Source of the DNA: Peribacillus frigoritolerans
GTDB taxonomy: Bacteria; Bacillota; Bacilli; Bacillales; DSM-1321
Assembly: GCA_030562215.1 (NCBI GenBank)
Contig: JAUPFL010000001.1
Location: forward strand, 1,538,501 to 1,602,500
Direction: 5' to 3'
DNA length: 64,000 nucleotides
Part shown: positions 1,825 through 16,423 of the stretch, piece after piece
How the letters are laid out: each line of letters starts with the position of its first letter
How positions within the stretch are numbered: position 1 is the stretch's first letter
Notes under the pieces: model-generated
Databases searched by the model: none
What the model was told of the DNA's origin: nothing
What the model saw: only the letters and a program-made list of their open reading frames with translations
Translations under genes and position numbers: made by a program

Positions 1825-2144
1825 AGCGAATAGGAGAACAACAACACGCTATCTATCTTTACAATGGAGCACTGGAGGTACTGTCATTTGAAAATGAAGA
1901 AAGAAAATATGTCATCACAGGGAACCTAATCGTAACCTATATACAGTGTGAAGATTGGGGAAATGCGAAGAGAATTATTGATTTAGTAAACGAGAATGAA
2001 CTTTATTCGTTATCGCGAGATCACTTTTTTTACAACAAAGAAGAAGTCGAACAGAAATTTATCGAGGGAATCGATAGGGAAATAATAACGTCATCATTTG
2101 TACAAAGGGAGGATAATAGAATTGATCAAGATTTTTGCGCTTAA
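1812..2144 (+). pseudogene. Unidentified open-frame remnant
   Basis: A second open frame overlaps the end of the helicase remnant and reads HRNLKRIGEQQHAIYLYNGA, then LIVTYIQCEDWGNAKRIIDL. The helical, TPR-like composition suggests part of a real protein, but no start codon or ribosome site is present and I do not recognise the family. It may be downstream coding sequence of the same decayed locus. Its end overlaps the start of the phosphopantetheinyl transferase. Confidence 0.35.
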
Positions 2145-2806
2145 GATACCAGGAGAAATTGAACCGGAAATTTTTTTAAAATGGAGCACAAAAGTATCAA
2201 AAGAACGAATGGAGAAAGTAAGTCGATTCTTTCGAAAGGAGGATGCAATGCGCTCACTGTTCTCTGAACTATTAGTGAGAGCGGTCATAAGTAAAGAATT
2301 TAACATACCAAATGAAGAAATTAAATTTACTTATAATCAATATGGGAAACCGTCGTTAAAGAATTCAAAGTCTTTTTTTCAATGTTTCTCATTCAGGTGA
2401 GTGGGTAGTGGCAATATTCCATACAGCCCCCATAGGGATTGATGTGGAAAAAATTCGCCCTGTTGATATTCACATCGCTGAACGCATTTTTTCGGATAAG
2501 GAATATCAAGAAATTTTGAGGAAGCCAAGGGAAGAACAAGAAAACTATTTTTTTGATTTATGGAGCTTAAAGGAAAGCTATGTAAAGGCTGTGGGAAAAG
2601 GCTTGTGCCAACCTTTTCATTCGTTTTCCATAACCAAAAAAAACAACGGGGAGATTATTTTTGCATGCAATGAAAGTCCCTGTCGCTGGTTTTTTAAGCA
2701 GTATAATTTGGCAGAAGGTTATACCTTGTCAGCGTGTACTATACAGGCGCAATTTCCCGAGGAAGTAACATTAATGGACCTAGAAGCAATAGAACAAGTT
2801 ATATAA
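2122..2806 (+). CDS. 4'-phosphopantetheinyl transferase (Sfp family), frameshifted
   Basis: Transfers phosphopantetheine from CoA to a serine of carrier proteins. The TTG at 2122 is preferred because AAAGGGAGG lies nine bases upstream. The restored protein follows Sfp closely: FFRKEDAMRSLFSELLVR, QYGKPSLKN, FNVSHSGEWVVAIF, GIDVEKIRP (magnesium-binding Asp/Glu) and WSLKESYVKAVGKGL. The reading frame breaks in a T run near 2375, inside the NVSHSG motif, leaving a 303-base piece and a 399-base piece. The two carrier-protein domains encoded from 9.7 to 12 kb are natural partners, so this gene probably serves that cluster. Confidence 0.9.
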
Positions 2807-2858: not shown

Positions 2859-3287
2859 ATGGACAAAAAAATGAAAAGTTGGATAGGATTTTGGTTAAAA
2901 AGGAATTATAGATCAATTTGTAATTATTTAGATCATGAGTTAGAACAATACAACATAACGAATTCACAATTAGGTGTATTGCTTATCTTATGGGAAAGTG
3001 ACGGTACCAGCCAGAAAGTAGTTCAACAGACTTTGGGAATTACGCCAGCGTCAATAACTAATCTCATTAAAGGACTTGAAAACAAAGGACTTATTATTAG
3101 AAGAGTGGATCCTAATGATTCAAGGGCAAATCTTATGTATTTGACGGACAAAGGAAAAGCGCTAGAGGAAAGATGCTTGACTATTGTCGAGAAAGCAGAA
3201 GTCATAGTTCGTAAGGGGTTTTCGCCTGAAGAGACTATGATACTTCGCTTATGGCTTCAGCGTGTGCATAAAAATATTGAAATATAA
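2859..3287 (+). CDS. MarR family transcriptional regulator
   Basis: Intact 142-residue winged-helix regulator. The DNA-binding core is visible as GVLLILWESDGTSQKVVQQ, then ITPASITNLIKGLENKGLI, then the wing RRVDPNDSRANLMYLTDKGK. The ATG follows GAGAGGAAATCAAT. It is transcribed in the same direction as the carboxymuconolactone-decarboxylase-like gene 110 bases downstream. Both genes are preceded by palindromes sharing TGTTATAA, so autoregulation and control of the neighbour are likely. The ligand is unknown. Confidence 0.9.
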   Translation: MDKKMKSWIGFWLKRNYRSICNYLDHELEQYNITNSQLGVLLILWESDGTSQKVVQQTLGITPASITNLIKGLENKGLIIRRVDPNDSRANLMYLTDKGKALEERCLTIVEKAEVIVRKGFSPEETMILRLWLQRVHKNIEI

Positions 3288-3397: not shown

Positions 3398-4063
3398 TTG
3401 ATTAAAATGGATGATGTTTTATACAAACGGTCTAACTTGGAGCGAGTTTCTGATATTCAAAAGCTTGCGCCCAAAACAGCGAATGCTTTTTTTGGTTTTA
3501 TGAATGAGGCGTTTTCTCCTGGTTTAATTGATGCTAGAACCAAAGAACTGATCGCTGTTGCTATTACGCATGTAACAGGGTGTCCTTACTGCATCGATGT
3601 TCATACAAAAAAATTCAAAGGTCACGGCGGAACAGTAGAGGAGATTTTGGAAGCGGTTATGGTTGCGGGCGTAGTAAACGCTGAGTCCGTCATTTTAAAA
3701 AGTGTGAATGCATTAAATGCTTTCAAGGGAGAAGCAAGTGATAGCCTTTATTTGAAAACTTATATGGATAAATTCAAGGAAGTTAAGACGGCGTTACCTA
3801 AGGCAGTGGAATCTTTTGAAGTATTTAATACAGATGTACTTGTTTCAGGAAATATCGATGCAAAGACTAAGCAACTTATTGCCGTGGCAGTCGCTCAAGT
3901 GACTGGATGCGCCTATAGTATTGAGGTCCATACTCAAAACTATAAGAAACTTGGTGGGGAAATGGAAGAGATTTTGGAAGCGATTATGGTTGCGGGCGTT
4001 GCAAATGCGGGATATGTTCTCACTCACAGCGTGAATTCTTTGACGTGTTTTGAAAAGCACTAA
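3398..4063 (+). CDS. Tandem carboxymuconolactone decarboxylase-like (AhpD fold) protein
   Basis: A 221-residue protein made of two homologous CMD domains. Repeat one contains ELIAVAITHVTGCPYCIDVH, with a CxxC motif as in AhpD-type disulfide reductases. Repeat two contains QLIAVAVAQVTGCAYSIEVH, where the second cysteine is serine. Both repeats end in EEILEA(V/I)MVAGV and an alanine-rich helix. The TTG start at 3398 has TTGGAGG seven bases upstream; an in-frame ATG at 3407 is the alternative. A peroxidase-partner or stress-reductase role is plausible, but the substrate is unknown. Confidence 0.85.
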   Translation: MIKMDDVLYKRSNLERVSDIQKLAPKTANAFFGFMNEAFSPGLIDARTKELIAVAITHVTGCPYCIDVHTKKFKGHGGTVEEILEAVMVAGVVNAESVILKSVNALNAFKGEASDSLYLKTYMDKFKEVKTALPKAVESFEVFNTDVLVSGNIDAKTKQLIAVAVAQVTGCAYSIEVHTQNYKKLGGEMEEILEAIMVAGVANAGYVLTHSVNSLTCFEKH

Positions 4064-4669: not shown

Positions 4670-4753
4670 AACTATCACCTCACTTTATTATTTATTACAA
4701 TATTAAACAAATATTACTTTAATTTCCATATAAAAATGAAAGGTGGAAATAAT

Positions 4754-6350
4754 TTGGCTGAACTAAGCGAAAATTCATCGGGCTATGGGGGCATGAAACA
4801 AGTTTTTACTATTAGTTTAGCGCTCTTTATTATTTTCTTAGATGGAAGTATTGTAAACATTGCGTTGCCAAGCATCATCAAAGAATATAGCACTGACTTA
4901 GGAATGGCATCTTGGATAATAAATGCGTACGTCATTACTGTAGCGGTTTTTCTTGTTTTTATGGGGAAAATCGGAGATATGTTAGGGAGAGCTAAATTTT
5001 ACAACATAGGCTTGGTTATGTTTATGCTCAGTTCTTTTTTTGCGCGCTTTCCACTAATGTGGAGATGCTTATCCTTTTTCGTTTTTTTCAAGGGATTAGC
5101 GGAGCGATTGTGATACCAACCAGTATGAGTCTAGTTCGTACTGCAGTTCCTCCTGAAAAAGTAGGCTCTGCCATGGGGGTTTGGGGAGCAGTAGGTGGAT
5201 TGGCGATAGCAATTGGACCTGCTTTGGGGGAGTAATTACAGAGGTTTCTGATTGGCGTTGGATGTTTTACATTAACCTTCCTGTCATTACAATTGCTTTG
5301 TTTTTAAATAAAAGAATATTTCAACATTTAAGAGAAAAGACACAACCGCTCCATTTTGATGTTTGGGGGACAATTACATTGAGTGTTACACTCTTTGTTC
5401 TTATTTACACTGTTATTAAAGGGCCGGATGTTGGGTGGATGTCCTGGCCAATAATAGGCGGCTTTACTTTTTCCATACTAGGGGTAGGAGTTTTTTATTG
5501 GATTGAACATAAGATCTCTTATCCGTTAGTTGACTTTGAATTATTCACCAATAAGTTGTATGTAGTTGGGCTGATATCGAATTTACTAGGTGGAATTCTT
5601 TTAAGCGGTATGATGATGATTTTGCCGATCCTTCTTACGGAAGCTATGGAATTTACGTCGTTGCAAGCAGCCTATTTTATTACACCATTATCTGCAGCGA
5701 TGCTGATTACTGCTCCGGTTACGGGGAGACTGATTGATCGCTTCGGTTTTTTTGTCCCTATGATAATTGGTTATATTATCAGTGTTATCGGTTTTTATCT
5801 TTTAACAAGTCTTGAAGTAAACACACCTACACTATCCATATTGTGGAGAATTGGAGTCATTGGTGTTGGGATTGCCATGATTGCAGTTACCAGTTTAACT
5901 GTCAGCACCGTTTCTGTTCAATCTTCACAGTCTTCTGTCGCATCAGGTATTTTTGCAATGGTACGAAATGTTGGAGGGGCCATTGGTGTTTCTCTTTTTG
6001 TTAGTGTGATTATGACATCCTTTAATCATTTCTCTATGGTTTCGATACAAGATTCTATTCAACAAATTCATTCAACTTCTTTGTCAACGTATGAAAAAAG
6101 TAAACTAACAGATGCTTTAAAAGCACAACAGGTATCGTTTTTCGATAGAAATTATACATCCCATTTGGAATCGCTCGAAATCAGTAAGAATAATCTGGGA
6201 GAATCGAAAAAGATGATTTCAGATTTGCGAGATCAGGAACAGAAAAATAAGGTAACTGCTATTCATTATGCATTTATTTTCGGAATGTTATTATCCATTT
6301 TCTTTAGTATTTCAGCGATGTTTTTACTAAAAAAATCATTTCAGTTATAG
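4754..6350 (+). CDS. DHA2-type (14-TM) MFS drug exporter, two frameshifts
   Basis: Proton-driven multidrug or metabolite exporter of the EmrB/QacA type. The TTG start is chosen for AAAGGTGG seven bases upstream. Family motifs are LDGSIVNIALPSI in TM1, ASWIINAYVITVAVF, GKIGDMLGRAK (motif A), GPALGGVITEVSDWRWMF (motif C region) and a Gly-rich C-terminal half. The frame breaks in a T run at 5035-5041 and a G run at 5226-5230; adding one base to each run restores a single protein of about 530 residues. Its position beside the biosynthetic operon makes it a candidate product exporter. Confidence 0.88.
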
Positions 6351-6495: not shown

Positions 6496-7695
6496 ATGGG
6501 TAGTTATTTTGCTGAAGTGGTAAAAAATATGAACAATTTGGGGATTGATCCAGTAGGGGCAGTTATCTCGTCTGTAAAAGACATTTATACACGACCAGAA
6601 AAAGAAATTGAGGAAATCAAGGCACACCTAATCTATGATAATTTCAAATTTCATTACGAAAATAATGCCTATTACCGAGGCCTCTGTGATGAACAGGGTG
6701 TGACTCCTGATGATGTGCAGACATTTAAGGATCTCGTAAAAATTCCAGGGATACACGTAGCAAGATTTAAAGATGTTAACTCTCACCAATTGTTGACCAA
6801 ATCTATTGCGTCTCTTGAACACGAACTAAGAAGTTCAGGAACAAGTGGTATTCCTAGTATCTCCAGACGGGATGAAGCAACCATCAACCGTACTGTATTA
6901 GGGATTTACGCAATGTATCGAGAGTTCTTCAAATTTTTTGACGGAGAAGCAATCTTCTTGGCACCATCCGCTGAGGAAATGCCGGAAATGGGGATGGTCA
7001 AAGTATTGAGCATGTTCTCTGGATTGATGGATGGAAGCCATAATGTAGTGAAGCAAGCGACTTTTGTTCCAGAAGAGGTAATAGAGTTATTAAATAGATG
7101 GGAAAGAATTCACACCAGACATCTTATTGGACCTCCGTTTATGATTGACCGACTGCTCAATTATCTAAGAGAAAATGATATCAGACTGAAACTGGATCGA
7201 AAAACAAAAGTAATTACTCTAGGTGGATGGAAAAGATATACGGGCGTTGAGATAGATAGAGAACAATTTAATAAGGAATGTGCTGAGTATTTAGGTATCA
7301 AGGAAGATCAAGTGAGAGATATGTATGGATTGGTTGAAACTAATTTTATGGCTATTGAGTGCGAACAACATGAAAAACATGTTCCCCCTTGGGTACATTT
7401 TTCTGTACGGGCCATGGAAGATCTCAGTAAAGAAGTAGAAGATGGGGAAGTAGGAAGACTAGTAATTTTAGACCCTACCTCCATATCGTATCCAGGATTT
7501 ATTATTACGGAAGATCTAGTTTTTCTGTCTAAAGATAAAGGCTGCTCCTGTGGTCGAAATGGACAAAGGATCAACTATTTATTTCGAATTAAAGGGGCGG
7601 AAATCGGTTGCTGTGCCATCAATTTAGAAAAGCACATGGATGAAAATGAAAAGAGCGATGGCGGAGAAGGTTTCTCTGTGAGTTGTTTTTGTTAG
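6496..7695 (+). CDS. LuxE-type acyl-protein synthetase
   Basis: Intact 399-residue member of the LuxE branch of adenylate-forming enzymes, which activate a fatty acid with ATP and pass it to a protein cysteine. Visible motifs are ELRSSGTSGIPS (phosphate-binding loop), TLGGWKRYTG, DMYGLVETNF (adenine and acid site), ISYPGFIITEDL and a cysteine-rich GCSCGRNGQR. The start is supported by AAAAAAGGTGG. It is the first gene of an operon that also holds a second, unrelated acyl activator (FAAL) and a carrier protein. The likely role is loading or transferring an acyl chain; the acceptor is unknown. Confidence 0.8.
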   Translation: MGSYFAEVVKNMNNLGIDPVGAVISSVKDIYTRPEKEIEEIKAHLIYDNFKFHYENNAYYRGLCDEQGVTPDDVQTFKDLVKIPGIHVARFKDVNSHQLLTKSIASLEHELRSSGTSGIPSISRRDEATINRTVLGIYAMYREFFKFFDGEAIFLAPSAEEMPEMGMVKVLSMFSGLMDGSHNVVKQATFVPEEVIELLNRWERIHTRHLIGPPFMIDRLLNYLRENDIRLKLDRKTKVITLGGWKRYTGVEIDREQFNKECAEYLGIKEDQVRDMYGLVETNFMAIECEQHEKHVPPWVHFSVRAMEDLSKEVEDGEVGRLVILDPTSISYPGFIITEDLVFLSKDKGCSCGRNGQRINYLFRIKGAEIGCCAINLEKHMDENEKSDGGEGFSVSCFC

Positions 7696-8107
7696 CAGAC
7701 TAAATTTGGATATATAGAACAGGGAATGCGAAAATAGAAGCATTCTAAAGCAAGGCAGCTTATTTAGAAACAGAAAAGTCAGTAGAGTAGACTGCTTGGG
7801 AACTAAGGACTAGAGCCTCCTACATCGTTGAATGACTGAATTCAAAAATGAGGAGATGATATAAGCTTTTCCGTACAGTGGGTATTTAAAATTAGAAGAG
7901 CAAGTCCTACAGAATATCGAAAAGAAAATTAGAGATCTATTAGAAGAGAAACGAGATAAAAAACGATGCACTACTTCGCGATTGGTGCTAATCGATGCTT
8001 TCACTCATCGGTATGGATTTAGGTTTCTTGTCGCGAAGAGGTGCAAAGTTCTTAGCACTTTCCAAATAAGATGATTATGGATGAAGTAGAAGTAAAGGAG
8101 GCTAAAA
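7696..8107. other. Gap between luxE-like and iscU-like genes
   Basis: About 400 bases with many stops up to 7864, then a frame open from 7865 to about 8070 (YLKLEEQVLQNIEKKIRDLL) that has no start codon or ribosome site. Its first part could be a gene remnant. The second part coincides with a strong inverted repeat, reported separately. AAAGGAGG just before 8108 serves the iscU-like gene. Confidence 0.4.
7967..8045 (+). promoter_or_regulatory. Long structured hairpin upstream of the iscU-like gene
   Basis: TGCACTACTTCGCGA (7967-7981) and TCGCGAAGAGGTGCA (8031-8045) pair at 13 of 15 positions: an 8-bp stem, a 2-base internal loop and a 5-bp stem. Inside the loop a second hairpin forms from CGATG (7993-7997) and CATCG (8006-8010). 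It begins 140 bases before the iscU-like start. There is no T tract, so it is not an ordinary terminator. It could be a leader RNA or protein-binding element; it matches no riboswitch I know. Confidence 0.45.
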
Positions 8108-8481
8108 ATGTACAACGAAATTATTACAGAACATTTTATGAATCCCCGTAATATTGGAGAGCTAGAGCATCCAAGTCGCGTTATTAAAATTGGCAACGCT
8201 GTTTGTGGAGATACTATCATCCTTCATATTGCTTACAACAATAATCAAGAAATTACGGACGTCAGATATAAAGCTTATGGTTGTGCCACATCTATCGCCA
8301 CAGTCAGTGTGTGTTTAGTGAATTTATACAGAATAAGTGTATTTCCGATTTGTCTGCCGTTTCCGAGACAGAAATCGAGGCTTTGCTTGGGGAATTAGAG
8401 CCAAATCAAATGCATTGTCTGGATATCATGAAAGAGCTCTTTAAACAACTTGGTATACCGGAAGGGACGAATGCATGTTGA
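8108..8481 (+). CDS. IscU/NifU-like Fe-S scaffold protein, frameshifted
   Basis: Small scaffold-fold protein that normally accepts sulfur from a cysteine desulfurase. MYNEIITEHFMNPRNIG, NAVCGDTI, YGCATSIAT and NQMHCLDIMKELF give the three cluster-ligand cysteines and the conserved Asp. The frame shifts in a GT repeat near 8305: the first frame continues to a false end at 8398, and the correct one ends at 8481. The end overlaps the desulfurase start by seven bases, showing tight coupling. Its presence inside a lipid/polyketide operon, rather than with suf or isc genes, suggests a dedicated sulfur-transfer role. Confidence 0.82.
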
Positions 8482-9664
8482 GAACGTACTTTGATTACAA
8501 TGCAACAACCCCTATAGATGAGAGTGTAGCAAAGGCTATGTCAAAAGAAGCATTTGAATTGTTCGGTAATCCGTCAAGCAACCATCAGTATGGAGGTAGT
8601 TCCAAGAAGAAGATAGAGAAGTCTCGTGAAGAAATCGCAGCCCTTATTGGAGCGAAACCAAATGAAATATATTTTACATCGGGAGGTTCGGAAGCTAATA
8701 ACTGGGTTTTAAAAGGATGGATTGAACAATTTCGATTTGATCCCATTCATGTAATTACATCGATGATTGAACATCCTTCTGTATTAGAAGTATGCAAATA
8801 CTTAGAAAGGTATTTCAACGCTGAAATCACTTATTTGGAAGTGGATAAAAATGGATTTGTGTCCGTGGATGATCTTGAACGCTCAATTCTCCCGCACACC
8901 CGAATCATCTCACTAATGATGTCAAATAATGAGATTGGAAGCATTCAGCCCATACAGGAATGCGCGAGTATTGCTAAGCGCTACGGTATCTTTTTTCATA
9001 CCGATGCCGTTCAGGCTGTTGGAAGAATACGTATTAATATTGAAGAATTAGGGGTAGATGCCCTTTCATTCTCTGGGCATAAATTTTACGGTCCAAAAGG
9101 AATTGGGGACTTTTTTTAAAAGAATCACGCGCACTTGAACCACTCCTTCATGGAGGATCTCAAGAGAATGGATTGCGTAGTGGAACGGAAAATGTGATTT
9201 CCATTGTTGGCTTGGGAGAAGCAAGTGCAAAAATACGTCAGGAGTTTAAAGAAGATTATGAAAGGATACAGGCATATAAAAATCTTCTTTTAAAGCAGCT
9301 CATAGAGCGGATTCCTTACACTTGCATTAACGGCTCAACTGATCAAGAGCATGTCTTGAATAATACTGTAAATATTAGTTTTGAAAATGTCAGGGGAGAA
9401 GCAGTTGCTGCTCTTTTGAATCAGATTTATGGTATTGCTGTTTCAGTAGGATCGGCATGTAGTTCGAACAAACAAGCTTCTTTGTCACATGTGCTGACCG
9501 CCATTGGATTATCAGAAGCACAAATCCGCTCATCGATCCGAATCAGTATTGGAAAATATACACAAAAAGATGATGTGTTTTTCCTGATTAATGCATTAGA
9601 GCATGTCGTTTCAAAGCTTCGTCGGATGATTCCTATTGAGCAGAACAATTTTGTACAACTCTAA
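8475..9664 (+). CDS. NifS/IscS-like cysteine desulfurase, frameshifted
   Basis: PLP enzyme that takes sulfur from cysteine as an enzyme persulfide. FDYNATTPID, FTSGGSEANNW, FHTDAVQAVG, the PLP lysine in SFSGHKFYGPKG and the catalytic loop SVGSACSSNKQ are all present. The frame breaks in the T run at 9111-9117; in the next frame it continues LKESRALEPLLHGGSQENGL and LRSGTEN. Full length is near the normal 390 residues. Its start overlaps the iscU-like gene and an ACP gene follows within 15 bases. No other Fe-S assembly gene is nearby. Confidence 0.88.
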
Positions 9665-9678
9665 CATGAGGTGAGGAT

Positions 9679-9975
9679 ATGCAAGCAAATAAGGTGCTAA
9701 CCATTGAAGATATTTCGTATGTGATAAAACAGAAAGTAATTATTGAGAATTTGGAATTAACAGGGATTACAGCGGGCGATATTCAAGATACAGAGCCTAT
9801 TTTTGGAGAAGGACTGGGTCTTGAATCAGTCGATACGTTTTATATCGTTAAAGGAATCGAAAAGGAGTTCGGGATGAAAGTAGATATTAAAAAAATCAAT
9901 TCTTTGAGAAAGCATTTTTATTCGGTTGCCACATTAGCTCAATACGTACTTTCACATCTTCAACAGACAAAGTAG
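9679..9975 (+). CDS. Free-standing acyl carrier protein
   Basis: A 98-residue ACP. The phosphopantetheine site is in FGEGLGLESVDTF, with Ser50 as the expected attachment point. The downstream helix III (LRKHFYSVATLAQYVLSHL) fits the fold. The ATG follows TGAGGTGAGGAT and lies 14 bases after the desulfurase stop. It sits directly before the fatty acyl-AMP ligase, its probable loading enzyme, and would be activated by the Sfp-type transferase at 2122. Confidence 0.85.
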   Translation: MQANKVLTIEDISYVIKQKVIIENLELTGITAGDIQDTEPIFGEGLGLESVDTFYIVKGIEKEFGMKVDIKKINSLRKHFYSVATLAQYVLSHLQQTK

Positions 9976-9997
9976 GAAAAGGTGGAGGAAATAATAC

Positions 9998-11776
9998 ATG
10001 ACAATAGTAAATATAGCTGAACAACATTCAAATCTTGTCAATTTACTGCAGTACCGTGCATTATATGATCCACATTCGTTAATGTATACATACTTAGATG
10101 ACACTGGAAAGGTAGAAAGAACGTTTACCATTGCTGATTTGGACAGAAAAGCTCGTGCTATTGCCTCAACGTTGCTTGAGATGGGAAAGCCAGGGGATCA
10201 CGTTCTTCTTCTTTATCCATCAGGTCTCGATTTTGTTGCAGCATTCTTTGGATGTCTATATGCAGGAATGATTGCTGTACCTACTTCGTTGCCTCATTTT
10301 CGTCGTCCTTCGGAAAGAATTCAAGCGATTGTTGCTGACTCTCAGGCTTCTATTGCTTTAACTACTTCTAAAATATCCGACGAAATCAAGAAGAATTCAT
10401 CTATACTACCTTATCTATCCATCTTGAGATTTAAGGCAACAGATCTTATTTCAGATATTTCAGCTAACGAATTTCAGGAAAAAGAGATTTCTGCTGACAT
10501 GATTGCTTTCCAGCAGTATACATCAGGTTCTACTTCAAAGCCAAAGGGCGTGATGGTTACTCATCGTAATTTGCTACATAATCTTTTTCTGATGGAACAA
10601 AACTTTAAACTTTCTTCTGAAACTAAAGCGGTGAGCTGGCTTCCAGCTTTTCATGATATGGGCTTGATTGGAAAAATTCTTTTGACACCTTATTTGGGTA
10701 GTCAGCTTGTTATGATGTCTCCAGTTAGCTTTATGCAACGTCCACTAAAGTGGCTACAAACAATTTCAAAATACGGTGCAACTTACAGTGGGGGTCCTAA
10801 TTTTGCTTACGAATTATGTGTTCAGAAGTTTAAACCTGAGCAGGTGACTGATTTGGATTTGAGTAGTTGGCGTGTAGCTCTAAATGGTGCGGAACCGATC
10901 CGTTTAGAAACTCTAAGAAAGTTTGCGGAGTGTTATGCTCCTTATGGTTTTAGGGAAGAAAGCATCATGCCTGGGTATGGATTGGCGGAAGGTACTTTGT
11001 ATGTATCTGCTTGTAGCAGGGATTATTTTCCGATTACGTTATTCGTCGATGCTGTAAAGTTAGAACAAAATCAAGTGAAGGTTGTTTCAGAAACAACAGA
11101 GGAAGCACGTGCGTTGATTGGCTGTGGTCACGTTTATACCGGACAAAAGGTAGCGATTGTTGATCCAGAAACATTGGTTAACTGTACTGATTTGCAAGTC
11201 GGTGAGATTTGGGTGTCTGGACCAAGTATATGCAAAGGATACTGGAACAATCCAGAGAAAACTGCTGAAACTTTTGAGGCTTACATCAAAGATACAGGAG
11301 AAGGCCCATTTTTACGAACAGGTGATTCAGGATTTATTATGGATGGAGAACTATTTGTGACGGGTAGAATGAAAGATTTGATTATCATTCGAGGACGTAA
11401 TCACTATCCGCAGGATATTGAATTAACTGTTCAAAAGAGCAGCCCGGCTATTCGAGATGAATATGTAGCAGCGTTCTCGGTAGAGGTTGATGGAGAAGAA
11501 CGATTAGTGGTAGTTGCTGAACTGAATCGTGACTACCGTCCAAGAGGCAAAAATGAAAATTTAGAGGATCAGAATGAGTCGGATGAGGCGGTTCTTTTGA
11601 AAAAAGTTGCTACTGAAGTACGCAAGAAAGTTGTGGAAGTACATGAAATTCAACTTTATAAACTCATACTGATTAAAACTGGTACAATTTCTAAGACTTC
11701 TAGTGGTAAGATACAGCGGCATGCTTCAAAAATAAAGTATCTAGAAAACAATTTTGAAGCCTATGGATGTTTCTAA
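9998..11776 (+). CDS. Fatty acyl-AMP ligase (FAAL-type)
   Basis: Intact 592-residue adenylating enzyme that activates a fatty acid as acyl-AMP and loads it onto an ACP. Motifs in order: QQYTSGSTSKPKGVMVTH (about residue 173), VSWLPAFHDMGLIG, PGYGLAEGTLYVS, GDSGFIMDGELFVTGRMKDL, IRGRNHYPQDIE and the C-terminal lysine region TSSGKIQRH. The AFHDMGLIG and IRGRNHYPQDIE wording is that of long-chain FAALs rather than acyl-CoA synthetases. GGTGGAGG precedes the ATG. With the ACP upstream and the KS downstream, it probably supplies the lipid starter. Confidence 0.9.
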   Translation: MTIVNIAEQHSNLVNLLQYRALYDPHSLMYTYLDDTGKVERTFTIADLDRKARAIASTLLEMGKPGDHVLLLYPSGLDFVAAFFGCLYAGMIAVPTSLPHFRRPSERIQAIVADSQASIALTTSKISDEIKKNSSILPYLSILRFKATDLISDISANEFQEKEISADMIAFQQYTSGSTSKPKGVMVTHRNLLHNLFLMEQNFKLSSETKAVSWLPAFHDMGLIGKILLTPYLGSQLVMMSPVSFMQRPLKWLQTISKYGATYSGGPNFAYELCVQKFKPEQVTDLDLSSWRVALNGAEPIRLETLRKFAECYAPYGFREESIMPGYGLAEGTLYVSACSRDYFPITLFVDAVKLEQNQVKVVSETTEEARALIGCGHVYTGQKVAIVDPETLVNCTDLQVGEIWVSGPSICKGYWNNPEKTAETFEAYIKDTGEGPFLRTGDSGFIMDGELFVTGRMKDLIIIRGRNHYPQDIELTVQKSSPAIRDEYVAAFSVEVDGEERLVVVAELNRDYRPRGKNENLEDQNESDEAVLLKKVATEVRKKVVEVHEIQLYKLILIKTGTISKTSSGKIQRHASKIKYLENNFEAYGCF

Positions 11777-11791
11777 TCTAAAAACACAGGT

Positions 11792-14344
11792 ATGAAAGGT
11801 AAACAAATGAGTCTAAATGTACGTACTTCATCAGATATAAAGAAATGGCTAATTGAAGAAATTGCTGCTCGATTGGAACTAGTTCCAGAGGAGATCGAGA
11901 CAGGGGAACCATTCATTAATTTTGGTTTGGATTCTGCGGAAGCGGTCATGTTGTCTGGAGACTTGGCAGAATGGTTAGGTCAAGAAGTTTCACCGACAAT
12001 TTTCTGGGATTTTCCTTGCATTGAGGAATTAGCAATTTCATTGTCAAATGGTGATAATGAAGATTGCAAAATTAATTTTACCGCCGATAAAAAAGTACAA
12101 ATATCAAAAGAACCGATTGCAATTGTAGGCATTGGTTGCCGATTTCCTAGAGCAAAAAATCCTAGAGAGTTTTGGGATTTGTTGAAGGAAGGTAAGGATG
12201 CGATTTCAGATTTCCCGATTGAACGTTTGAAGCTGATTAATCAGTATAAGGGAGAACATTTTGGGATACGTAGAGGGGGATATGTAGAGAATATTGAGCT
12301 TTTTGATTACTCTTTTTTAAGATTACTAAAAGGGAAGCGACTAGAATGGATCCACAGCAACGTATGCTGTTGGAAGTAACGTGGGAGGCTTTCGAAGACG
12401 CGGGCATTAATCCTGAGAAAATACGTGGGACGAAGACAGGTGTATTTATTGGAACCTCCAACAGTGATTATGGACGTATGCAAATCACTCAATCGCAAGA
12501 TCCTCATATTTATGCGGTTACTGGTACAGCATTAAGTATTGCTGCCAACAGGATATCATATTTTTTGATCTTCATGGTCCGAGTATGGCAATTGATACTG
12601 CTTGTTCATCTTCTCTTGTTGCCATTCATTATGCCTGCCAGAGCATTTGGCAAGGAGATTCAACATTGGCTGTTGTCGGTGGTGCTAATCTCATTTTATC
12701 TCCGGAGATTACGTCCAGTTTTGCGAATGCAGGTATGCTTGCAGGTGATGACTGTTGTAAAACATTTGATGCTCGAGCAGATGGCTATGTTCGCGGAGAA
12801 GGAGTAGGAGTGGTAATTCTTAAGTCGTTCTCCCAAGCTATATGTGATGAAGATGACATTTACGCAGTCATTCATGGAAGTGCTGTGAATCAGGATGGAC
12901 GCACAAACGGCTTAACAGCACCGAATCAACAATCACAGGAAGAAGTACTTTTAGCTGCTTATAAAAATGCTGGGATCTCACCTACAGATGTTGATTATAT
13001 CGAGGCACATGGGACTGGTACATATCTTGGTGATCCTATCGAAGCAAAAGCGTTAGGAAAAGTGTTGAGCCAAGGTAGAAATGCTGAAAATTACTGTTGT
13101 CTAGGTTCGGTGAAGACAAATATTGGGCATTTAGAATCTGCTGCTGGTATTGCGGGACTCATTAAGGTAGCTCTTTCCATTAAACATAAACAGATTCCTC
13201 CACACTTGAACTTTGCTGAACCGAATCCAAACATTCCATTTGAAGAACTTTTATTAAAAGTTCCAACAAAGTTACAATCGTGGCCTGATGTAAATAAAAA
13301 CATAGCAGGGATAAGTTCATTTGGTTTTGGTGGAACCAATGCCCATGTGGTGTTGGGAGGGGTTTTCCAGGTAATAGCTGCACGTTTTTGGATCAGACAA
13401 CCTCTGACCAACCTGTGTTATTTCCTCTTTCAGCTAAAGGAAGGGATGCGCTCGTGACTATTGCTAGTCGAATGCGTGACTATCTGTTGTATTCTTCGGC
13501 GGAGGAAGAGCGATTGGAGGATATTAGCAGCACACTTATTCATCAAAGAAAGCATCATGAGACTCGGTTGGCTGTTGTCGGGAGAAGCAAAGAAGAAGTT
13601 GCTAAGAAGCTCGAAGAATACGTGAAAAACAAAATGATAGAAAATTTAGATAACAGCAAAGAGGTAGTGTTTGTTTTTCCAACCCAGATGCCTATTTGGT
13701 CACAGGACAAAGACTTTTGGATTTTACAAGAAGCAGTTTTTCGTGAATCATTGATAGAAACAGACCGTCTCATACAAAAGCAGGTTGGCTATTCAATATG
13801 GAATCAGTTATTTGTAAATCGAAACACTACATGGGAGGGTTCATCAGAACAACTAAAGTTCACACTGTTTGCACTACAAGTAGCTTTAGTGGATTTATGG
13901 AATTACTGGGGTATAAATCCAGTATCTTTTATAGGAATCGGCTTAGGAGAAATCAGTGGTTCCTACGCAACTGGATTGTTGACGCTACAGGAGGCAATTC
14001 ATAGGGTACTATCTATGGATGATAGGGCCGTACATTCAGATTATGTTAGCCTTAGCGTTGAACAACAATTGCAGACATGGGTTAGTAAAAGGGATGCCAT
14101 TTACTTGGAAATTTCACCAGAACCTCTATTGGATCAGGAAAATATGGTAGATAGACTAGAAGGGAAATCAGCGCTTCTCCTGCGATGCTCCTTTCAAGAT
14201 AAAACGGTTATGTTGGAGAGTTTAGGTCACCTTTACACAAGGGGATATCCGATAGAAACAATTTCGCTCAATCAAAAAAGGAGAGCAAATGTTCATCTGC
14301 CTGAGTATGCGTGGCAGAGTACGAAATGTTGGTTTGGAATCTAG
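11792..14344 (+). CDS. Polyketide synthase: ACP-KS-degenerate AT, three frameshifts
   Basis: Starts at ATG 11792, or at 11807, which has the better AAAGG site. An N-terminal carrier domain has FGLDSAEAV (Ser48). The ketosynthase begins at EPIAIVGIGCRFP and retains DTACSSSL (active Cys), EAHGTGTYLGDP and KTNIGHLESAAG (both His). After the KS, an acyltransferase-like part has FIGIGLGEISGSYATG where GHSxGE is expected, and about 120 residues of the AT core are absent before the usual post-AT end VHLPEYAWQ. Frames break at T runs 12313-12318 and 12561-12566 and at G runs near 13355-13362. Ketosynthase activity is likely; acyltransferase activity is not. Confidence 0.88.
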
Positions 14345-14367
14345 ATGGATTGAGGAGTATAACGATT

Positions 14368-15462
14368 ATGATGAAAAAGATAGATATCCTAGTTATTGGA
14401 GCGGGGCAAGCTGGATTATCTTTGGGATATTATTTGCAACAACAAAATGTGTCCTTTCTCTTAATTGACAGCAGTCAAAATATTGGTGATATTTGGCGTT
14501 ATCGCTATGACTCACTTGTGTTATATACACCGAGATTTTACAGTGCCTTACCCGGATTACGCATTTCTGGCGATCAGTGGGACTATCCTACGAAGGATGA
14601 GATTGCGGATTATTTAGCAGATTATCAAAGACATTTTTCCATTCCAGTTTCTTTAAACACAAATTTATACAGAATGAAAAAAACAGCAACCGGATTTTTG
14701 GTTGAAACCAGCCAAGGGGAGTTTGAAGCTCAAAAAGTAGTCATTGCGACAGGTCCATTCCAAAATCCCTATATTCCCAGTATAGCTGAAAATTTATCAA
14801 ACGAAATTTATCAGATTCACACGTCTTCATATCATAATCCTTCGCAGTTACCTGAAGGTCCGGTGTTAGTTATTGGAGGAGGTAGCTCAGGTGGGCAGAT
14901 TGCTGTAGAATGCTCAAAAGATCGTGAAGTTTATCTTGCTATTAGTTCTAAGATTAATTATTTGCCGTATAAGTTTTTAGGAAGAAGTTTATTTTGGTGG
15001 TATGATAAATTAGGTTTGTTAAAAAAGGGGCCTGAAACAATATTAGGTAAGAGAATGAAAGGAAAACCTGATCCTATGTATGGGTTTATACTCAAAAAAC
15101 TAGTCAAATCAGGCGCTATTAAAGTAAAGCCTCGCGCAATAGAAGCGATGAATGATGAAGTGGAATTTGCTGATCAAACAAAATTGAAAATCAAAACTAT
15201 CGTCTGGGCCACGGGATTCATATCAGATTACAGTTGGGTTGAAATCCCAGAACTGTTTGACTATGATGGGAAGGTTATTCAAGATAGAGGAATAAGTAAT
15301 GTTCCTGGGTTGTATTTTCTGGGATTGCCTTGGCAGACTTCCCGCGGCTCTGGTTTGATTGGATGGGTTGGCCGGGATGCAAAGTTTATAAGTGAACAAG
15401 TAGTAAGTTCTCATGCACAACAGGTTCAGATCAAAAAAGAAGAGACTTTTTCAGCTATGTAG
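14368..15462 (+). CDS. FAD/NADPH-dependent monooxygenase-like oxidoreductase
   Basis: Intact flavoprotein of the CzcO/flavin-monooxygenase group. The FAD Rossmann motif VIGAGQAGLSLGYYL is near residue 10, the NADPH motif VIGGGSSGGQIAVE near residue 169, and the conserved IVWATGF appears in the C-terminal third. The start at 14368 (ATGATG) follows TGAGGAG; longer in-frame starts overlap the PKS end and are unlikely. As the last gene of the operon it probably oxidises the product (N-, S- or Baeyer-Villiger-type); the exact chemistry is not readable from sequence. Confidence 0.8.
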   Translation: MMKKIDILVIGAGQAGLSLGYYLQQQNVSFLLIDSSQNIGDIWRYRYDSLVLYTPRFYSALPGLRISGDQWDYPTKDEIADYLADYQRHFSIPVSLNTNLYRMKKTATGFLVETSQGEFEAQKVVIATGPFQNPYIPSIAENLSNEIYQIHTSSYHNPSQLPEGPVLVIGGGSSGGQIAVECSKDREVYLAISSKINYLPYKFLGRSLFWWYDKLGLLKKGPETILGKRMKGKPDPMYGFILKKLVKSGAIKVKPRAIEAMNDEVEFADQTKLKIKTIVWATGFISDYSWVEIPELFDYDGKVIQDRGISNVPGLYFLGLPWQTSRGSGLIGWVGRDAKFISEQVVSSHAQQVQIKKEETFSAM

Positions 15463-15560: not shown

Positions 15561-16423
15561 GGTTCTGGTGCAAATACTTCAGGAGAGGTATAAAGAGGCG
15601 AAAAGTTTCTTAGTGGAATCTATTTTATGCTGGAAGGCCGAATAGTTGATGAATGAGGTTTACTTGATTTCGGACAGACTTCTCCCCTTGGAGGGTTTGT
15701 CCTTTTTCATCATATGCACAGCTTCTACTCCTGCAAGAATTTGTTTGGCAGTTCGAAAGGACTTTAATCCTAACATGGAACGAACTCGCTTTTTAATGAA
15801 GCGATTATCTTGTTCTACGATGTTATTAAGATATTTTATTTTTCTTATTTGGATGCCTAAAGGCATCTTTTTCTCCTTCTTCAGCTCTTCAATCGCCACA
15901 GGATAGGCGGGATTCCTATCAACGGTTATCACACGAGGTATTGAAACATGAAAAGACCGCAAGGCTTTCTTAAAGAATCGCTTTGCAGCCTTGGGGTCTC
16001 TTGTTTTATTTAGATAAAAATCAATGGTATTTCCTTCTGAATCAACTGCAAGATACAGATACATCCACTGTCCTTTGACTTTGATATAGGTCTCATCCAC
16101 TCGCCAAGAATCGTTGGTTTTCTTAAGATGACGACGAACTCTCTTGTCCAGCTCAGGACCATATTGATGAACCCAACGCATGATGGTTGTGTGAGCAATA
16201 GAGAAGCCTCGTTCTTCCATCATTTCCACCAAATCACGAAAACTGAGATTGTACCGTAGATACCATCTTACCGTTAATAAAATAATGTCAGGCTGATAGT
16301 GTTTCCATTTAAACAAATTTTGCTTTTCCATACTGATCGTGCCCCTTTTTTAGAGTAATAGTATCAGTATGTCCAAGTTTTAGAGATTACTTGCAATTGT
16401 CTTGAAGTTTTTGCACCAGAACC
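15561..16423 (-). mobile_element. IS6-family insertion sequence
   Basis: An 863-bp element bounded by inverted repeats: GGTTCTGGTGCAAATACTTC at the left and its near-complement ending in TTGCACCAGAACC at the right. One transposase gene lies on the minus strand. The flanking 8 bases differ (ATTAATAA and AGTACAGT), so the target duplication expected of a single insertion is absent. That suggests later recombination or a deletion next to the element. It separates the biosynthetic operon from a truncated chromosomal gene. Confidence 0.88.
15660..16331 (-). CDS. IS6-family DDE transposase
   Basis: Intact 223-residue transposase. The DDE residues are in WRVDETYIKVKG, ITVDRNPAYP and NNIVEQDNRFIKKR, and the helix-turn-helix precedes them (LSFRDLVEMMEERGFSIAHT). 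Length and motif spacing match the IS6/IS26 group, whose members move by replicative transposition and often flank acquired DNA. Because the frame is intact, the element may be active. Confidence 0.92.
   Translation of the reverse strand: MEKQNLFKWKHYQPDIILLTVRWYLRYNLSFRDLVEMMEERGFSIAHTTIMRWVHQYGPELDKRVRRHLKKTNDSWRVDETYIKVKGQWMYLYLAVDSEGNTIDFYLNKTRDPKAAKRFFKKALRSFHVSIPRVITVDRNPAYPVAIEELKKEKKMPLGIQIRKIKYLNNIVEQDNRFIKKRVRSMLGLKSFRTAKQILAGVEAVHMMKKDKPSKGRSLSEIK

Follow-up and report, generated by a model that had tools for sequence, protein, structure and literature searches.

To our knowledge, biology has only a few known ways of putting sulfur into lipids and natural products, and several described systems come close to parts of a gene cluster that we have analysed in Peribacillus frigoritolerans. 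The cluster lies in a 64,000 nt stretch of DNA (assembly GCA_030562215.1, contig JAUPFL010000001.1, positions 1,538,501–1,602,500; hereafter the window, its genome being G000). It includes a LuxE-like acyl synthetase, an IscU-like scaffold, a NifS-like cysteine desulfurase, a free acyl carrier protein (ACP), a fatty acyl-AMP ligase (FAAL), an ACP–ketosynthase (KS) protein and an FAD-dependent monooxygenase (FMO); these seven functions, which an earlier note on this DNA had named, are all supported by Pfam.

The LuxCE fatty acid reductase of bioluminescence (PDB 7xc6) shares with the cluster the LuxE family and the position of the acyl-carrying cysteine, which in the P. phosphoreum enzyme is Cys364, the acyl transfer site according to the excerpted text of PMC8301110 (citing Soly and Meighen). 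It differs in that the 13 cluster genomes tested lack full-length LuxC, IscU and NifS follow LuxE in the cluster, an extra Cys372 precedes the acyl cysteine, and three cluster LuxE proteins score 167–172 bits, short of the NCBIfam LuxE equivalog cut-off of 550. The thioacid cassette PtmA3/PtmU4 of thioplatensimycin likewise combines an acyl-activating enzyme with dedicated sulfur transfer but, as far as the excerpted text of PMC6006322 goes, uses CoA activation and sulfur carriers with a C-terminal Gly-Gly, whereas the cluster has LuxE, ACP and IscU/NifS; PtmU4 and sulfur-carrier families did not turn up in general Pfam scans of the cluster genes, none of which was a search aimed at PtmU4. In thiotetronate biosynthesis (StuS/StuJ) a NifS-like desulfurase also serves a polyketide product, although there it works with a thiouridylase-like partner and its genes occupy a separate locus (excerpted text of PMC5518548). 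Finally, FAAL-primed polyketide synthases of the Pks13/FadD32 type have an ACP–KS protein adjoining a FAAL, but in the cluster the acyltransferase (AT) domain is degenerate, the L015 protein has no thioesterase (TE) match and KS is confined to one of three architectures. The earlier note had called the combination unfamiliar from characterized pathways, and our searches of the open-licence PMC literature are in line with this: no paper there combined the term ‘cysteine desulfurase’ with ‘LuxE’ or with ‘acyl-protein synthetase’, broader combinations returned nothing relevant, and no sulfur route was found in which a LuxE-type enzyme works with an ISC-type pair.

Conserved core and three architectures

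We compared 14 loci with a close LuxE (48–61% identity with the window LuxE over all comparisons) by one uniform tblastn search, in which LuxE identity is 49–61% and absences hold within the sequence stretches covered. LuxE, IscU, NifS, ACP and FMO occur together in all 14 loci, FAAL in 12, a CMD/AhpD-like protein (CMD) in 11 and KS in six. The order LuxE–IscU–NifS is kept at every locus, with gaps of 38 bp or less in the 12 non-window loci measured (L020, near-identical with L019, was left out); FAAL, KS, CMD and others shift place or drop out. Because LuxE, IscU and NifS are present in 14/14 loci, as against 12/14 for FAAL and 6/14 for KS, the sulfur part is the core of the cluster and the polyketide part is optional. 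The joining of sulfur transfer and acyl activation in one dedicated operon, as claimed before, is thus upheld by the five genes found at every locus. Lipid-primed polyketide assembly, offered at the same time as the defining logic, is not: the presence of KS in only six loci rules it out as the core, FAAL is missing from two and the AT has no catalytic motif.

The loci fall into three architectures. Type I comprises six (the window, L015, L016 and L066–L068), all with KS, a major facilitator superfamily (MFS) transporter, a two-domain CMD and a phosphopantetheinyl transferase (PPTase), and four of them, including L016, with a MarR regulator. Their order is MarR, CMD, MFS, LuxE, IscU, NifS, ACP, FAAL, ACP–KS–AT remnant, FMO and PPTase, except that in the window the PPTase lies upstream and not after FMO. 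The six type II loci (G023, G568, one each from Priestia and Metabacillus, and two near-identical ones from Cytobacillus) have the order CMD, FAAL, FMO, ACP, LuxE, IscU, NifS; L020, which belongs here, gave no CMD match and its FAAL is shorter. Type III, in Halalkalibacter and Mesobacillus, consists of a PrdB/GrdB-like protein, FMO, ACP, LuxE, IscU and NifS, and FAAL, CMD and KS were not found within the stretches covered (the L018 sequence ends 0.26 kb after NifS). The PrdB/GrdB-like protein, of 168–169 amino acids and resembling part of D-proline reductase, takes the position of CMD and FAAL, immediately upstream of FMO (L017:7899–8405 and L018:7879–8388), the call being made by Pfam for both and by NCBIfam for L017. 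In a LuxE tree the five Paenibacillus-group sequences group with support of 1.0, and the window joins them on a branch with 0.999; the type II sequences make up a single group (0.999), which type III adjoins with low support (0.27 and 0.82).

The acyl site of LuxE and the lack of full-length LuxC

Cys373 of the window LuxE aligns with Cys364 of the LuxE in PDB 7xc6, the acyl-accepting cysteine. At this site all 13 cluster LuxE proteins compared read GCC, whereas seven of seven ordinary LuxE proteins read KGC or RGC, so that the extra Cys372 is found in 13/13 of the former and 0/7 of the latter. Cluster LuxE also carries a CxCG motif, which only one of the seven ordinary proteins shares, and four invariant cysteine residues within its last 50 residues. 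The predicted structure has a pLDDT of 64 and recovers only the PaaK/ANL fold.

The neighbours of the two kinds of LuxE also differ. Ordinary LuxE has a LuxC (E 3e-91 or better) about 0.3 kb away in all six same-genus genomes tested (the seventh, G032, was left out), and IscU and NifS were not seen in the ~1.5-kb flanks of the seven ordinary loci. At two more distant plasmid loci, from the six non-Priestia matches listed, an acyl-CoA reductase lies directly after LuxE or 2.3 kb away, and the distant LuxE of G1070, which has KGC at its acyl site, shares its contig with a LuxC. In contrast, full-length LuxC was not found in any of the 13 cluster genomes tested: two gave no match, and the matches in the other 11 were all partial (best 6e-9); even the longest of them, covering positions 88–372 of 401 in G747, is below the cut-off.

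A dedicated IscU–NifS pair

Exactly two NifU_N proteins occur in each of nine genomes out of nine, one in the cluster and the second elsewhere. The second copies are of the SufU type, with its insertion and Lys-Cys, in all five that were compared (of nine). The cluster IscU has no such insertion and has His-Cys, and its eight intact relatives keep the three cysteine residues, the aspartate and the histidine before the third cysteine, as expected of IscU/NifU; the excerpted text of PMC10216065 distinguishes SufU from IscU/NifU by the insertion and by Lys-Cys versus His-Cys. Two intact IscU relatives score 93 and 103 bits, below the NCBIfam equivalog cut-off of 187.9. The seven intact NifS relatives that were aligned all contain HKxxGPKG and SACSS, as do the window pieces; we take these motifs to be the pyridoxal phosphate (PLP) lysine region and the active-site cysteine loop (type I) of NifS/IscS. 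Two intact NifS relatives reach 359 and 481 bits against the NCBIfam NifS cut-off of 530.75, and the only cut-off that the L013 protein passes is that of the broad subfamily NF002806 (327.5 versus 304). Since their scores lie below the NCBIfam equivalog cut-offs, LuxE, IscU and NifS of the cluster each look like a diverged branch.

The NifS–IscU pair is dedicated to the cluster. A general Fe-S pair inserted here by coincidence, which the earlier note had named as one of two findings that would overturn its reading, is ruled out by the linkage with LuxE at 14/14 loci and by the second NifU_N protein in 9/9 genomes.

FAAL, the ACP–KS protein and a CxC tail

For FAAL, the NCBIfam matches that follow a broad NRPS/PKS model are FAAL/AMP-ligase models (486 bits and down), ahead of the best CoA ligase model (327), and all of them lie below their cut-offs. 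The window and two relatives have the KS triad Cys-His-His (TACSSS, EAHGTG, NIGH), and L067 has SIGH for NIGH with the histidine retained. In the AT remnant GEGxG or GLGEIS stands in place of GHSxG, so that the catalytic motif is lost. Pks13 is among the two best NCBIfam matches, and a Pfam scan of the intact L015 protein gave no TE match. A search for KS in 299 genomes of the order at E 1e-140 found none and missed the window's own broken copy too, and is therefore uninformative; an AF2 model of the ACP–KS–AT protein (pLDDT 36) was unusable.

In all five Paenibacillus-group KS proteins a variable linker leads to a C-terminal TCFC. The window KS has no such tail, and its LuxE ends in SCFC instead. 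A C-terminal CxC was found in three of 478 stop-to-stop open reading frames (ORFs) of at least 150 amino acids (27 stretches, chance ORFs included), namely the LuxE of the window and the KS proteins of L015 and L016, and in all three further KS proteins obtained later; the tail was noticed post hoc, and the KS proteins are related to one another.

Proposed mechanism and alternatives

Proteins of the NifS family make a persulfide from cysteine and then pass it to IscU. We propose that the cluster places cysteine-derived sulfur on an activated acyl chain, the NifS–IscU persulfide taking the acyl group from LuxE to give a thiocarboxylate-type lipid, a tentative reading that we hold to be only slightly less probable than its negation. 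In types I and II, FAAL would load a fatty acid on to ACP, and in type I KS would hold or extend the ACP-bound chain. The LuxE-like enzyme would then, in the manner of LuxE, bind the acyl group through Cys373 and hand it to a persulfide sulfur on IscU or on Cys372, not to the reductase LuxC, so that a thiocarboxylic acid or acyl persulfide would be released. In types I and II the AhpD-like CxxC protein might reset the resulting disulfide, and the monooxygenase might oxidize the product, which would be a sulfur-containing fatty acid or lipid. Acyl transfer to a persulfide fits because the order LuxE–IscU–NifS is invariant, full-length LuxC is lacking, the acyl site has a cysteine pair and the AhpD-like proteins have CxxC motifs (four of the four examined, from types I and II). 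The second NifU_N protein in 9/9 genomes and the C-terminal CxC on two different cluster proteins also speak for it. In another system an acyl-activating enzyme and sulfur transfer together yield thiocarboxylates (excerpted text of PMC6006322), and photoxenobactins have natural thiocarboxylic and dithioperoxoate termini (excerpted text of PMC9177418).

A fuller version would be a new acyl–sulfur route in which LuxE has changed partner from LuxC to a NifS–IscU relay, with the Cys-Cys site and, in type I, the C-terminal Cys-Phe-Cys arm as a mobile sulfur carrier, yielding lipid thiocarboxylates or acyl persulfides; as a whole, partner change and persulfide relay together, it is open to considerable doubt. 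If true, it would show an acyl-transfer enzyme gaining a new acceptor through a change of partner. The KS-free type II cluster, seven genes on a Priestia megaterium plasmid, is amenable to direct expression and assay.

Several points weigh against persulfide transfer from NifS–IscU to the acyl group. The cluster IscU keeps the Fe-S scaffold residues, an aspartate after the first cysteine and the histidine before the third (compare the excerpted text of PMC10216065), and may possibly assemble Fe-S clusters rather than simply transfer sulfur. The LuxE–IscU–NifS linkage is conditional on the way in which the loci were found, through LuxE similarity. Weak matches to the LuxC model mean little either way, since it also matches in nine of 14 control genomes. 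Residues 364–399 of the predicted LuxE structure, the region of Cys372 and Cys373, have a pLDDT below 50. Persulfide transfer does not account for the KS of type I or the PrdB-like protein of type III. Gene content and order, the lack of full-length LuxC, the cysteine doublet and the second NifU_N protein are observed, and from these we infer the chemical steps, the substrate and the product.

The main rival, which we consider rather unlikely, is that NifS–IscU assembles an Fe-S cluster for one pathway enzyme, either LuxE (via CxCG and Cys-Cys) or an enzyme encoded outside the cluster, so that the product would contain no sulfur. The cluster IscU, without the SufU insertion and with the IscU/NifU aspartate and His-Cys (features as in the excerpted text of PMC10216065), is unlike the five SufU-type host copies, and this would suit such a role, as would the four invariant cysteine residues near the end of LuxE. 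However, no Fe-S protein family is among the Pfam matches of the scanned cluster genes, CxCG also occurs in two LuxE-like proteins from other contexts (L011 and G1070), and the hosts own a second NifU_N protein. Alternatively, sulfur might be placed on a carbon of the acyl chain and not on the carboxyl group, the monooxygenase making an epoxide or similar group that a persulfide opens, as proposed for thiotetronates. FMO at all 14 loci accords with this, but no thiouridylase-like family is among the Pfam matches of the scanned cluster genes and the conserved LuxE acyl-cysteine site points to the carboxyl end, and we regard it as improbable. The window copy might also be a pseudogene cluster in decay, in keeping with its seven frame breaks in ~13.4 kb, the 412-bp gap between its LuxE and IscU and the adjoining IS240-type transposase; we regard this as improbable as well, given that LuxE, ACP, FAAL and FMO are open, that key residues are kept and that G000 is broken elsewhere too.

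Gene content and integrity of the window copy

The window genes (Table 1) were called from Pfam and NCBIfam profile scans and from tblastn against the other loci; all, from PPTase to FMO, lie on one strand. The N-terminal half of the PPTase was recognized by eye only, and tblastn matched the gene to a Paenibacillus PPTase located after FMO (33% over 138 amino acids, E 7e-20). PPTase, MarR, CMD and MFS all have counterparts in the Paenibacillus planticolens locus, and the cluster therefore extends beyond the seven genes listed in the earlier note. That list was right in the genes that it named, but it lacked these four, passed over the AT remnant and did not show IscU, NifS and the ACP–KS gene as broken.

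Table 1 Genes of the cluster in the window
Feature	Position	Strand	Basis
Sfp-type PPTase, two frames (2098–2400, 2408–2806)	~2098–2806	+	Pfam ACPS 9.2e-23 on 2408–2806
MarR-family regulator	2859–3287	+	Pfam MarR 4.1e-12; 50% to L015 MarR
Two-domain CMD/AhpD-like protein, CPYCIDVH (CxxCxxxH)	3398–4063	+	Pfam CMD 1.5e-35, two stretches; 55% to L015
MFS transporter, one frame shift	4736–6350	+	Pfam MFS_1 on both pieces; both match intact L015 MFS
LuxE-like acyl synthetase, Cys372-Cys373, C-terminal SCFC	6496–7695	+	Pfam LuxE 1.1e-47; aligned to 7xc6
IscU-like scaffold, frame shift near 8310	8108–8481	+	NifU_N 4.2e-19 (8108–8398); intact relatives
NifS-like cysteine desulfurase, broken near T7 run at 9111	8475–9664	+	Aminotran_5 (8475–9119, 9173–9664) and TIGR03402 on both pieces; SACSS loop
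Free ACP	9679–9975	+	PP-binding weak, 2.3e-4; conserved Ser and homologues
FAAL	9998–11776	+	AMP-binding 9.1e-68; best single-enzyme NCBIfam models FAAL-type
ACP–KS–degenerate AT protein, three frame breaks	11792–14344	+	Pfam ACP and KS 11792–13457; intact homologues of 816–826 amino acids in Paenibacillus-group loci
FAD-dependent (FMO-like) monooxygenase	14371–15462	+	Pyr_redox_3 9.2e-33; FMO-like 6.7e-11

The seven breaks fall once each in PPTase, MFS, IscU and NifS and three times in KS, and the second half of the window IscU, in another frame, carries the His-Cys pair with the third cysteine. Such breaks are found elsewhere in the G000 assembly, and assembly indels are therefore a likelier cause than decay: by eye count, 30 matches to PF00501 in G000 include eight places with adjacent partial pairs (AMP-binding domains split in two), whereas 24 of 25 in same-genus G023 are near full length. 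The mean non-overlapping stop-to-stop ORF is 246 amino acids in G000 (seven sampled 20-kb stretches) versus 294 in G023 (ten stretches). The FAAL of the Priestia KF18 plasmid cluster (L012:16832–18597) is annotated as two overlapping genes, and that copy may also be broken.

Directly 3′ of the window cluster, on the opposite strand, lies an IS240/IS6-type transposase (15660–16331). The 412-bp gap between LuxE and IscU (7696–8107) holds a 23-nt imperfect inverted repeat and is single copy in the genome; a plasmid search with it gave no match. An Rfam scan gave one match, with an E of 0.14, below its gathering score.

Distribution

Relatives were probed by LuxE similarity, in genome samples that overlap between searches. 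At 1e-10, LuxE matched in nine of 43 genomes of the family, with a close LuxE only in the window's own genome and G023. At 1e-60 it matched in one of 398 class genomes (its own), three of 299 order genomes and five of 104 genomes from the family to which P. planticolens belongs, and at 1e-30 in two of 398 phylum genomes (its own and the distant G1070) and two of 36 in the genus of G695. These data show that the cluster is rare and scattered among Bacillus-like bacteria. A scan of genome contigs with LuxE gave seven loci, and a search of phages one distant match. A plasmid search with the cluster DNA gave no match; tblastn of LuxE on plasmids gave 64 records, the matches listed including 14 from Priestia with 50–51% identity, one of which (Priestia megaterium) was examined as a locus, LuxE being matched on 13 more Priestia plasmids. 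The type II LuxE of G023 is 94–95% identical with those of G568 and the Priestia plasmid; as G023 and G568 belong to different families, this suggests that the type II cluster was recently transferred.

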